Positions 2,882 through 6,031 of a DNA stretch of 64,000 bases are shown piece after piece (positions within the stretch are counted from its first letter, which is position 1; each line of letters starts with the position of its first letter). Source of the DNA: Heterorhizobium halophytocola (GTDB taxonomy: Bacteria > Pseudomonadota > Alphaproteobacteria > Rhizobiales > Rhizobiaceae). The stretch covers positions 124,001 through 188,000 of the forward strand of contig NZ_JAGGJU010000011.1 in assembly GCF_017873095.1 (NCBI RefSeq), in the 5' to 3' direction. The position numbers were made by a program, and so were the translations under genes. The notes beneath the pieces are model-generated. The model was not told where the DNA came from, made no database searches, and saw only the letters and a list, made by a program, of their open reading frames with translations.

Positions 2882-3574
2882 ATGCCAAGAAGTGCCGTGC
2901 GTATTCTCTTGGTTGAAGACACTCTCGATGTGGGCGAGGCAATCTGCCGGCGCTTCCAGCAAACCGGCCATATGGTCGACTGGGAGACGGATGGCGCCGT
3001 CGCGTCCGACATCATGTCCTTCACCGAATATGATCTGGTCATCCTCGACGTCATGCTGCCCGGCCTCGACGGCTTCTCGATCCTGCGCCGTCTGCGGCAA
3101 TCGAAGAACGGTGTTCCGGTGCTGGTGCTGACGGCGCGCTCGGAAGTCGACGACCGCGTGAGCGCGCTCGATCTCGGTGCCGACGACTATCTCGTCAAGC
3201 CCTTCGACTTTCGCGAACTCGAGGCCCGCGCCCGCGTGCTGCTGCGCCGGCGCAGCGGCGGCGAATCCACCAATGTCATCGTCTGCGGCGATGTCAGCCT
3301 CGACCGGACCAATCGCAGCGTCACCGTCGGCAAGCGCGAGGTGCAGCTGAAGCGCCGCGAGATGACACTGCTCGAAATCCTCGCCACACGCCCCGGCAAG
3401 GTGTTCAGCAAGGAAGAGCTGCTCGACCAGCTGTTCGGCTTCGACGAGGCGGCGGGCCCGAATGCGATCGAACTGTATGTCGGGCGCCTGCGCAAGAAAC
3501 TGGAGGGCGCCAAGGCCCGGATCGTCACGCTGCGCGGCGTCGGTTATCAGCTGGTGTCCGATGACGACGCATAG
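2882..3574 (+). CDS. tctD: OmpR/PhoB-family response regulator, TctD-like
   Basis: DNA-binding response regulator, 230 residues. The receiver domain spans about residues 6-120, with the acidic pair E12/D13, phosphoacceptor D56 (in VILDVMLPG) and the conserved lysine in DYLVKPF near residue 106. A winged-helix domain covers about 130-225 and ends in the usual RLRKKLEG and TLRGVGYQL segments. It overlaps the next gene, a sensor kinase, by 14 bases, so the two are probably translationally coupled. Being divergent from tctCBA, it most likely activates that transporter, as TctD does in Salmonella. The symbol is by analogy; orthology has not been tested. Confidence 0.88.
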   Translation: MPRSAVRILLVEDTLDVGEAICRRFQQTGHMVDWETDGAVASDIMSFTEYDLVILDVMLPGLDGFSILRRLRQSKNGVPVLVLTARSEVDDRVSALDLGADDYLVKPFDFRELEARARVLLRRRSGGESTNVIVCGDVSLDRTNRSVTVGKREVQLKRREMTLLEILATRPGKVFSKEELLDQLFGFDEAAGPNAIELYVGRLRKKLEGAKARIVTLRGVGYQLVSDDDA

Positions 3575-4952
3575 AAGCTCGCTCTTTGCCCGGCTGATGC
3601 GGCGCATGGCCTTCGTGCTGTGCCTCGGCGCCGGCATCATGATTACCGGCGCCTGGTTCTACGCCCGGGCGGCGGCCGATGTCGCCTATGACCGGCTGCT
3701 GCTCGGCGCGGCGATCCAGATGTCGGAAAGCCTTGTGATCACCGACGGCGCCTTGCACTTCACCCTCCCCCCGTCGGCCTTCGAGCTTCTGGGACTGGCG
3801 CAACGCGACCGGATCTTCTACCGCATCGTCGATACCGACGGCCAGACGGTCACCGGCTACGGCGATCTCGAGCCGCCCGGCAATCTGCGCGCCAGCCGCA
3901 AGGGCCCCGTCTTTGCCAATGCCGTCTACCGCAAGACGCCGGTGCGCACGGTCACCGTCAGCCATGCGCTCAGTCTCGCCGGCACGCCGGGCTTTGCCTA
4001 TGTCGTCATTGCCCAGACGACCGAGGCGCGCCGGTCGCTGGCCTCGGAACTGACCACCCGCGCTACCTTGCTCGTGGCTATGATGAGCCTGCTCGCCATC
4101 CTCGGCATCGCACTGGCCGTGCGCTATTCCCTGCGTCCGGTCGCCGATCTCGGCGATGCGCTGTTGCAGCGCGATCCCAAGGACCTGACGCCGATGACCG
4201 TGGCCGTGCCGCGCGAGCTCTATCCCTTCGTCACCTCGATCAATTCATTCATCACCAGGCTCGACGAACGCGTGGTGCTGTTGCAGCGCTATATCGCCGA
4301 TAGCGCCCACCAGATCCGTACGCCGCTGACCGCGCTGACCGCCCAGGTCAGCCTGATCAACGACGACGCCATGCGGCCGGAAGACCGCCGCCATCTGGAA
4401 CGCGTGCGCAACCGCACCGGCGAACTCGCCCGGCTGACCAACCAGCTGCTCAATCATGCCATGGTGATCCACCGCTTCGATTCCACGCAGTTGCAGCCCG
4501 TCGGCCTGAACGAGGTCGCCCGCAAGGCCTTCCGCGCCGCGATCCCGATCACCATCGACCCCGACATGGTCGTCTCCTTCGAGGCGGCGGAGGAAGAGCT
4601 CTTCGTGCTCGGCGATGCGCTCAGCCTGCGCGAGGCCATCATCAACCTGATCGACAATGCGCTGCGCCACGGCGCCGTCTCCAGGCTCGAGGTCAAGGTC
4701 AACCGCCAGGGCGATCTCGGCCTGGTCGAGGTCTCCGACGACGGCCCGGGCATCCCGCCGGCCGAGTGGGACAACGTCATCCGCCGCTTCTATTCCAGCC
4801 GCACCGACGGCGAGGCGTCCGGCCTCGGCTTTGCCATCGCCTCGGAGGTCGCAAGCGCGCTGCGCGGCCGGCTGCAGTTCCGCCGCAAGACGCAGACCTC
4901 CCCCTTCTCGGTCTATATCGAGCTTCCTCTCTGCCGGGAGAGACCCGTATGA
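3561..4952 (+). CDS. tctE: Sensor histidine kinase, TctE-like
   Basis: Membrane sensor kinase of 463 residues. A first membrane segment lies at about residues 14-38, a periplasmic region of about 135 residues follows as in the TctE N-terminal domain, and a second membrane segment lies near 175-195. The dimerisation/phosphotransfer domain has IADSAHQIRTPLTAL with the phosphoacceptor His250. The ATPase domain shows NLIDNALRHG (N box), VSDDGPGIP (G1) and SGLGFAIASEV (G2). The ATG at 3561 overlaps the regulator gene. The last codons overlap the next start as ATGA, so kinase and binding protein are coupled. It probably senses a carboxylate, directly or through the neighbouring periplasmic protein. 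Confidence 0.88.
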   Translation: MTTHRSSLFARLMRRMAFVLCLGAGIMITGAWFYARAAADVAYDRLLLGAAIQMSESLVITDGALHFTLPPSAFELLGLAQRDRIFYRIVDTDGQTVTGYGDLEPPGNLRASRKGPVFANAVYRKTPVRTVTVSHALSLAGTPGFAYVVIAQTTEARRSLASELTTRATLLVAMMSLLAILGIALAVRYSLRPVADLGDALLQRDPKDLTPMTVAVPRELYPFVTSINSFITRLDERVVLLQRYIADSAHQIRTPLTALTAQVSLINDDAMRPEDRRHLERVRNRTGELARLTNQLLNHAMVIHRFDSTQLQPVGLNEVARKAFRAAIPITIDPDMVVSFEAAEEELFVLGDALSLREAIINLIDNALRHGAVSRLEVKVNRQGDLGLVEVSDDGPGIPPAEWDNVIRRFYSSRTDGEASGLGFAIASEVASALRGRLQFRRKTQTSPFSVYIELPLCRERPV

Positions 4953-6031
4953 AAGCCCGCCTTGCCCTTCTCGCCCTCGCTCTTGGCCTGATGCCGCACC
5001 TTGCTTTCGCCGTCGAGGGCGAACGGGCGCTGTTTCCGGCCGTCAGCCAGGAGACCGAGCGGCTGTCGATCCACGGCGCGACCGACCTTGCCGCCATGCG
5101 GCCGCTGATCCTCGACTTCCAGAAGCAGGCACCGAATACCGCGGTCGAATTCGTCGACTACGTGACCAACGATCTCTTTCGCGAGGCGGTGGACGCCTGC
5201 AGCGGCAAGGACATTGGCAACGGCGGCGACCTGCTGCTGTCGTCGTCGGTCGACCAGCTGGTGCGGCTTGCCAATGACGGCTGCGCCCAGTCCTACAGTT
5301 CACGGATGACCGAAGCTATCCCTGCCTGGGCCAACTGGCGCGAAGAGATCTTCGGCTTCACCTTCGAGCCGGTGGTCTTCGTCTACGACAAGAGCAAGGT
5401 GCCGCCCGAAGACGTGCCGCGCAGCCATGACGCGCTGGCCGACCTGTTGCGGCGCAAGGCCGACGTCTATTCCGGCCGCATCGGTACCTATGACATCGAG
5501 GCCTCGGGCGTCGGCTACCTGCTCGCCTATAACGATTCCCGCCAGGCACCGACCACCTATGGCCGGATCGTCGAAAGCTTGAGCCGCACCAGGACCGTGA
5601 TCCGCTGCTGCAACAACGAGGTGCTGGGCGAGATCGCCAGGGGCAATGTGCGGCTCGCCTATAATGTGCTGGGCTCCTACGCCTATGCCGCCGCCCGCAC
5701 CAATCCCAATCTCGGCATCGTGCTGCCGAACGATTACACCCTGGTGCTGTCGCGCGGCGCCATGGTGCCGTCCACCGCCCAACATCCGGCGCTCGCCAAG
5801 CGGTTCATCGACTATCTGCTGTCGCCGCGCGGGCGCGAGGTGGCGCGGCAGAAATCCTTCTTCTTCTCCGAAAACGGCCCCCTGCCCGAGGGTGTCGAAG
5901 GCCCGCCCGACCTGATGGTGTCGGGCATCGGCCGCCCGATCCGCATCGGCCCGGCGCTGCTGGCGGCCCAGGACACCATGCAGCGCCAGACCTTCATCTC
6001 CGACTGGAAGGAACTGCTGTCGCTGCATTGA
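4949..6031 (+). CDS. Periplasmic substrate-binding protein linked to the TctDE-like kinase
   Basis: Secreted binding protein of 360 residues with a signal peptide (hydrophobic core at residues 5-20, cleavage likely after AFA at 21). The mature part resembles the iron(III)/small-anion class of ABC binding proteins: early segment SIHGATDLAAMRPLILDFQ and a late segment KRFIDYLLSPRGREVARQ, where this class has its last helix. It starts within the kinase stop (ATGA at 4949) and no ABC permease or ATPase follows; the next gene is convergent. It may therefore be a periplasmic ligand sensor for the kinase rather than a transport component. That role is inferred from gene order only. Confidence 0.75.
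   Translation: MKARLALLALALGLMPHLAFAVEGERALFPAVSQETERLSIHGATDLAAMRPLILDFQKQAPNTAVEFVDYVTNDLFREAVDACSGKDIGNGGDLLLSSSVDQLVRLANDGCAQSYSSRMTEAIPAWANWREEIFGFTFEPVVFVYDKSKVPPEDVPRSHDALADLLRRKADVYSGRIGTYDIEASGVGYLLAYNDSRQAPTTYGRIVESLSRTRTVIRCCNNEVLGEIARGNVRLAYNVLGSYAYAAARTNPNLGIVLPNDYTLVLSRGAMVPSTAQHPALAKRFIDYLLSPRGREVARQKSFFFSENGPLPEGVEGPPDLMVSGIGRPIRIGPALLAAQDTMQRQTFISDWKELLSLH

Follow-up and report, generated by a model that had tools for sequence, protein, structure and literature searches.

Analysis of a 64,000 bp stretch of the Heterorhizobium halophytocola genome (contig NZ_JAGGJU010000011.1, 124,001 bp–188,000 bp, forward strand), referred to here as the window and numbered from its first nucleotide, revealed a three-gene operon between 2882 bp and 6031 bp. 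The operon encoded an OmpR-type response regulator (RR), a sensor histidine kinase (HK) and an exported solute-binding protein (SBP) of the ATP-binding cassette (ABC) transporter family, and was divergent from the tctCBA genes of a tripartite tricarboxylate transporter (TTT). We think it probable that these genes constitute a dedicated three-component sensor of the TctDE type, in which the ABC-family SBP reports citrate or Mg-citrate to the kinase and the regulator activates tctCBA. That the SBP is a co-sensor of this kinase is, taken alone, highly likely.

In the proposed mechanism the exported SBP, which is of the metal-citrate-binding (MctA) kind, would capture a periplasmic tricarboxylate, with citrate or Mg-citrate the most likely, and the liganded protein would dock on the kinase at its 2CSK_N domain. 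In turn, the kinase would phosphorylate the OmpR/TctD-type regulator, which would bind the direct repeat CTGTCA-N5-CTGTCA at 2795 bp–2811 bp and activate the divergent tctCBA promoter. Import would be carried out by TctC, TctB and TctA; as the SBP would report to the kinase, it would not feed an ABC importer. The gene order, overlaps, domains, conserved linkage, fusions, co-variation, repeat and −10 spacing are seen directly in the sequences, and the ligand, the SBP–kinase and regulator–DNA contacts and the sign of regulation are predicted. The initial annotation of this DNA had already proposed that an orphan ABC-type SBP serves the kinase and thereby tctCBA. Comparative evidence supported this proposal, because the SBP recurred behind 2CSK_N kinases and was in some relatives fused to them, the kinase co-varied with the SBP and not with TctC, the SBP had the fold of a citrate binder with most of the ligand residues, and an operator-like repeat with a −10 element was conserved.

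Genetic organisation of the operon

The RR gene (2882 bp–3574 bp, plus strand) encoded the Pfam domains Response_reg and Trans_reg_C. Its best NCBIfam match was TctD (NF012023) at 206.4 bits, below the equivalog cut-off of 337, and it is a TctD-like relative that is not filed as TctD itself. The HK gene (3561 bp–4952 bp, plus strand) ran from an ATG at 3561 bp to a TGA ending at 4952 bp and encoded 2CSK_N, HisKA and HATPase_c domains as well as two hydrophobic segments; the periplasmic 2CSK_N domain was located at approximately 3621 bp–4052 bp (E-value 2.5e-36). This 2CSK_N kinase and OmpR-type regulator lay beside tctCBA, as in the TctDE family. The third gene (4949 bp–6031 bp, plus strand) encoded the putative citrate co-sensor, an SBP of 360 amino acids with matches to SBP_bac_11, SBP_bac_6, SBP_bac_1 and SBP_bac_8. 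PF03401 was not among its Pfam matches, so the candidate co-sensor is not of the TctC family. It began with a Sec-type signal peptide at approximately residues 1–21, a short hydrophobic stretch (hydropathy 1.88) up to AFA.

Direct reading of the coordinates bore out the overlapping three-gene operon of the initial annotation. The RR and HK genes overlapped by 14 bases and the HK and SBP genes by 4 bases (ATGA), such that the SBP start lay within the HK stop. The mechanically predicted open reading frames (ORFs) were longer than these gene calls, that of the HK starting at 3462 bp and that of the SBP at 4766 bp.

Distribution of the operon in Proteobacteria

In a class-wide search, 24 of 289 genomes contained a relative of the SBP (E-value 1e-10); a phylum-wide profile search detected relatives at 67 places in 60 of 398 genomes (E-value 1e-30). 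The flanks of all 67 places were fetched and classed, the 2CSK_N profile for annotating neighbours having been built from cropped domains. A check of how widely the trio is conserved across the phylum showed the order RR-HK-SBP, in which the SBP gene immediately follows the kinase gene, at 42 of the 67 places (39 genomes, the window included). All 42 trio kinases had a 2CSK_N domain, and tctA was present within approximately 6 kb at 31 of these places. The remainder comprised 11 SBP-permease-ATPase operons, seven SBP-tctC operons with a regulator and a 2CSK_N kinase on the opposite strand, and seven places classed as 'other', each with a regulator and a 2CSK_N kinase in the stretch; no kinase–SBP fusion was found among the 67. 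In the SBP-tctC operons that faced a kinase and regulator (L164–L169 and L177), the related SBP was the first gene.

Named genome contigs were also analysed. The best 80 of 595 confirmed relatives comprised 66 trios, 11 fusions, one SBP-tctC operon and two others, a set that leans to near kin because only the best 80 were kept. Trio or fused rows from the two sets together numbered 119 (42 + 66 + 11). In the 108 trio loci, an ATGA overlap of the SBP start with the HK stop was possible in 87, a 1-base overlap was present in nine, and in the other 12 another start codon lay within 60 bases. Chance adjacency of the three genes was rejected on the basis of this recurrence and the conserved start overlaps. 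Directly behind the trio SBP at L042 and L045, a second TTT was encoded on the opposite strand together with another kinase and regulator.

The kinase and the SBP also co-varied. In the 78 trio loci that had all parts, the partial correlation between 2CSK_N and SBP distances, controlling for RR, TctA and the kinase core, was 0.374 (the largest of 300 permutations gave 0.12), whereas that between 2CSK_N and TctC was −0.007.

Kinase–SBP fusions

The proposed partnership of kinase and SBP was encountered in many Proteobacteria, in some of them as a single fused protein. At 11 of the best 80 named loci (L070, L071, L072, L074, L082, L086, L092, L104, L108, L111 and L112) a single ORF encoded 2CSK_N-HisKA-HATPase-SBP, and this order was confirmed with Pfam for L104 and L111. 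The hosts were Azospirillaceae, a Rhodovibrionaceae metagenome-assembled genome (MAG), a Roseomonas record, two Rhodobacteraceae MAGs and Bordetella genomosp. 5. On an annotated Azospirillum brasilense plasmid record the fusion was a single coding sequence of 2544 bases. One classic kinase with SBP_bac_1 is tabulated for three of four Azospirillum genomes in PMC4618731, and we infer that these kinases are the fusion found here. The label 'fusion' required three changes on the SBP tree described below, one of them forced.

The linker between the HATPase and SBP domains resembled a former signal peptide, with basic residues, a hydrophobic run and a small-x-Ala motif. A hydropathy scan placed a segment above the threshold in six of the 11 proteins, and inspection by eye found the motif ahead of the SBP domain in all 11. 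Such a linker would take the SBP to the periplasm, either tethered or cut. AlphaFold modelled a fused protein with low confidence (mean pLDDT 63.9, linker 31–39), and the model is therefore no evidence either for or against a third membrane helix. We hold it to be an evenly balanced possibility that a sublineage, the Azospirillaceae and others, uses a single-polypeptide system whose internal export segment places the citrate-binding domain in the periplasm. Either the C-terminus of the kinase would cross the membrane a third time and bear a ligand-capture domain of its own, or each kinase would yield one SBP through cleavage by signal peptidase. The fused form and the split trio would then make up a portable citrate-sensing cassette in which the output is swapped between TTT and ABC transporters and the operator repeat is kept. 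At two of the fused loci, three tandem CTGTCA half-sites with 11-base spacing were present before the tctC gene downstream of the fused gene (L108, 8109 bp–8136 bp; L112, 8092 bp–8119 bp).

Predicted structure and ligand of the SBP

The AlphaFold model of the window SBP (pLDDT 92.9) was most similar among solved structures to the Agrobacterium protein 3c9h (Z 42.8, 33% identity). This was followed by the MctA entries (Z 38.5–40.9), of which Mg-citrate-bound MctA aligned over 312 residues (Z 40.9, 29–30% identity; phmmer E-values of approximately 1e-37 to 1e-36). The next fold group was AfuA (Z 29.6). Entry 6lkg, titled 'two-component system protein mediate signal transduction' and which we take to be HptA, was also among the fold neighbours (Z 25.1). 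At L165, a very close relative of 3c9h (597 bits) was encoded at the head of an SBP-tctCBA operon, and a 2CSK_N kinase and a regulator were encoded divergently from it.

The properties of MctA were drawn from the titles of its PDB entries, several of which are titled as bound to Mg-citrate or citrate. According to these titles, the mutants S79A, S164A, T199A and Y221A/F are in the apo state, and S26A and D28A retain citrate. Mapping by hand through the alignment placed MctA S79, S164, T199, Y221, S26 and D28 at S99, S186, N222, Y244, A44 and D46 of the SBP, respectively, such that three of the four apo-mutant positions were kept (S99, S186 and Y244). Among the 119 trio or fused rows, S99 was kept in 114, S186 in 118, Y244 in all 119 and D46 in 116, and the residue aligned with T199 was S or T in 94 rows and N in 21. 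On this evidence, citrate or a similar tricarboxylate is a likely ligand. Citrate or Mg-citrate would be the most likely of these, and citrate is our best guess because the fold was nearest to MctA and 3c9h, most of the pocket positions were kept and the relative of 3c9h was found in an SBP-tctCBA operon.

A vicinal Cys-Cys pair at SBP residues 220–221 (approximately 5606 bp–5611 bp) adjoined the T199 position, near the expected citrate pocket. It was present in 83 of 108 trio SBPs, eight of 11 fused SBPs and one of nine 'other' SBPs, and in none of the 15 ABC-operon or eight SBP-tctC proteins; pooled, this was 91 of 119 trio or fused SBPs versus 0 of 23 from ABC or SBP-tctC operons. The pair is a mark of the sensor class and may possibly form a vicinal disulfide or provide a redox input.

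The signal could instead be a different ligand of this fold: a tricarboxylate other than citrate, a sugar phosphate (the case of AfuA and HptA) or an iron chelate. Hexose phosphates and ferric ions are among the ligands of related folds, and positions 44 and 222 of the window SBP differ from MctA. However, in sequence and fold the SBP was far nearer to MctA and 3c9h (Z 38–43) than to those proteins (Z < 30), and the linked targets were TTT-type transporters in most trios. We regard a ligand other than citrate as possible but unlikely.

Direct repeat in the putative tctC promoter region

The tctCBA genes were all on the minus strand. The gene for the transporter's own binding protein, tctC (1656 bp–2630 bp; PF03401, E-value 1.9e-20), was given a start picked by eye ahead of its signal peptide. 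It was followed by tctB (995 bp–1483 bp; PF07331, E-value 1.2e-14), the small membrane subunit, and by tctA (1 bp–965 bp), the large membrane subunit, which ran past the start of the window and was 505 amino acids in total (L116, 8448 bp–9965 bp).

When the tctC-RR gap of the window was aligned with those of 14 near relatives, a single feature was fully conserved, namely the repeat CTGTCA-N5-CTGTCA (2795 bp–2811 bp, plus strand), which is the putative RR site. It was the sole match in the window gap at one mismatch or fewer; 13 of 100 shuffled gaps had such a match. A score of at least 11/12 was reached in 65 of 100 divergent RR/target regions, which include related species and are not independent, compared to one of 1680 random stretches of the same length from the same loci. 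By class, these were 62 of 79 trio tctC/RR regions, both trio ABC-SBP/RR regions and the single fused region. When 59 distinct regions were aligned at the repeat and followed along the transporter strand, a TANNNT motif lay ten bases downstream, with T and A at 90% each. In the window this corresponds to TAGAGT (2779 bp–2784 bp, minus strand), the putative −10 element of the tctC promoter, which follows the repeat at a distance of 10 bases when the tctC strand is read. Such spacing is what would be expected if an activator bound immediately ahead of a −10 element. Consensus scans found neither an intrinsic terminator nor a sigma-70-type tctC promoter.

A survey of 50 hand-picked loci, mainly non-divergent, found the repeat before the transporter operon in seven rearranged loci, of which L046, L050, L066 and L111 encoded ABC importers and L108, L112 and L196 encoded TTTs; it was absent from many of the 50. 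In the second TctDE-type region of the genome (L117), no such repeat was seen by eye between the regulator and the TctC-like gene.

Evaluation of the proposed mechanism

A number of observations weighed against a dedicated citrate sensor acting through this repeat. Neighbouring genes for an SBP and a kinase need not encode interacting proteins; in PMC11113362, two SBP-kinase neighbour pairs of Pseudomonas aeruginosa are reported to have shown no interaction. The trio did not form one clade; its label required seven changes on the SBP tree, at least four of them forced, which indicates that the arrangement was gained or lost more than once. Two MctA residues were replaced in the window SBP, T199 by N222 and S26 by A44. 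The kinase core also correlated with the SBP (0.394), so the co-variation is not interface-specific and points to co-inheritance of kinase and SBP as one cassette rather than to an interface. The repeat scored below 11/12 in 17 of the 79 trio tctC/RR regions and reached this score in none of the seven SBP-tctC, seven 'other' and four ABC regions scored, the last of which carried CTTTCA-N5-CTTTCA instead. It was lacking at L076 and at the second TTT of L160, and at L055 it lay before RR and not before tctC. Finally, the repeat at 2795 bp–2811 bp fits what we take to be the Pho box consensus, and three exact copies were present in the genome, one of which, by eye, precedes a Pit-like ORF.

In a BctC-like arrangement, TctC would be the citrate-loaded partner of the kinase and the SBP would tune or buffer the signal or have another periplasmic role. 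BctC is reported to be needed for signalling and to contact BctE (PMC5812351), and TctC is present at this locus. The genome contained seven TctC-family matches and three 2CSK_N kinases, and the second 2CSK_N system, on contig 2, had TctC-like and TctA-like genes nearby without such an SBP, which makes it a natural contrast. Against TctC as the partner, the kinase co-varied with the SBP and not with TctC, and at three of the trio loci and one of the fused loci the neighbour was an ABC importer. In addition, neither TctA nor TctC was seen at 30 of the 119 trio or fused loci, although the stretches were limited and the genes may sit elsewhere. We consider this arrangement improbable.

A similarly low probability is given to control of tctCBA by PhoB, with the repeat as a Pho box, in place of the linked regulator. 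Besides the match to the presumed consensus, an exact copy on contig 4 (362,830 bp–362,846 bp; L218) was found before a Pit-like phosphate transporter ORF, and this copy is probably a true Pho box. However, the repeat adjoined this regulator in 65 of the 100 divergent regions and preceded whichever transporter adjoined the trio in the seven rearranged loci. The recognition helix of the linked regulator also differed with the repeat variant (N versus D/E and G/S versus H/Y; four CTTTCA loci, few and related), which leans towards the linked regulator as the binder. Judged from these patterns, it is very probable that this regulator binds the repeat.

As the initial annotation had noted, no partner was encoded beside the SBP; no ABC permease or ATPase was detected by profile in the 13 kb around it (L151), and no second copy of the SBP was found in the genome at E-values up to 0.01. 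A permease query from the MctA-like operon of a relative gave 17 weak matches in the genome, of which the best was inspected for its neighbours. The best (28% identity) belonged to a complete SBP-permease-ATPase operon of its own, and the objection foreseen in the initial annotation, a partner ABC permease elsewhere, was not borne out by this match. A tree of 98 SBPs, built by a quick method and with several long end branches, placed the 15 ABC-operon SBPs on one side of a branch with support of 96 and the window SBP among the trio SBPs. That the SBP is an orphan transport protein for an ABC permease encoded elsewhere, merely co-regulated behind the kinase, is thus very unlikely: the fold family consists mostly of ABC SBPs, relatives occur in SBP-permease-ATPase operons at 11 of the 67 places and the genome holds the 17 permease matches, but the ABC-operon SBPs lie across that branch from the window SBP, the best permease match has its own SBP and ATPase, the ABC operons at L046, L050, L066 and L111 own a second SBP that coexists with the trio or fused one, and fusion to a kinase fits transport poorly.

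Neighbouring genes

Tripartite ATP-independent periplasmic (TRAP) transporter genes were convergent to the trio, comprising dctM (6119 bp–7444 bp), dctQ (7449 bp–8090 bp) and dctP (ending at 8248 bp), all on the minus strand. Beyond them, within the region 6119 bp–12,113 bp, a PAS-type histidine kinase (9493 bp–11,481 bp) and a LuxR/FixJ-type regulator (11,478 bp–12,113 bp) were encoded. These genes are probably a second, separate set for uptake and sensing of organic acids.

Comparison with known systems

The logic of an SBP acting with a kinase and a regulator is already known, from HptA-HptS-HptR and BctC-BctE, and a review puts the number of characterised examples in which an SBP activates a sensor kinase at only about ten (PMC9602780). 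The apparent novelty lies in the pairing of a TctDE-type kinase with a dedicated SBP of a different superfamily branch, in the split and fused forms of this pair, and in a putative operator shared by TTT and ABC targets. In the open-access literature no title or abstract was found that describes an ABC-type SBP as the partner of a TctDE-type kinase. If the proposal is true, these loci would be a widespread natural set in which the same kinase class and SBP family occur split or fused, with two unrelated transporter classes and one operator. It would explain citrate sensing by some 2CSK_N kinases, change the label of such SBPs from 'ABC transporter substrate-binding protein' to 'co-sensor', and provide a direct system for how a ligand-loaded SBP switches a kinase.

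HptA-HptS-HptR of Staphylococcus aureus likewise combines a secreted ABC-type SBP without its own importer, a kinase-regulator pair to which this SBP reports a metabolite, and an adjacent divergent non-ABC transporter gene under its control, uhpT (PMC8774646). It differs in its ligand, glucose-6-phosphate, and in its target, uhpT in place of a TTT; in fold, its SBP and that of the window are only remotely related. The families of HptS and HptR presumably also differ from 2CSK_N and OmpR.

BctCBA-BctDE of Bordetella pertussis and TctCBA-TctD(E) of Salmonella are described as TctDE-type systems beside the citrate TTT that they control, and SBP-dependent signalling is reported for BctC-BctE (PMC5812351, PMC9602780). 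In these accounts signalling depends on the TctC-family protein that belongs to the transporter itself, whereas the trio has a second SBP, from another Pfam group, encoded in the sensor operon.

SBPs are also reported to be needed for two-component signalling in AatJ-AauS-AauR of Pseudomonas syringae (PMC7386598) and for CuaD of Ruminiclostridium (PMC10384115), with different ligands and kinase classes; AatJ, unlike the window SBP, is described as part of its own ABC transporter.

MctA, the metal-citrate-binding protein of Thermus (PDB 7f6e and related entries), has the same fold over approximately 312 residues, and most of its citrate-pocket positions are kept in the window SBP. The PDB titles name MctA as an SBP of an ABC transporter, whereas no ABC partner was found for the window SBP, which has replacements at T199 and S26. 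The nearest solved relative, 3c9h of Agrobacterium, differs in that its gene would be placed with the transporter and not behind the kinase, a setting deduced from the relative at L165.

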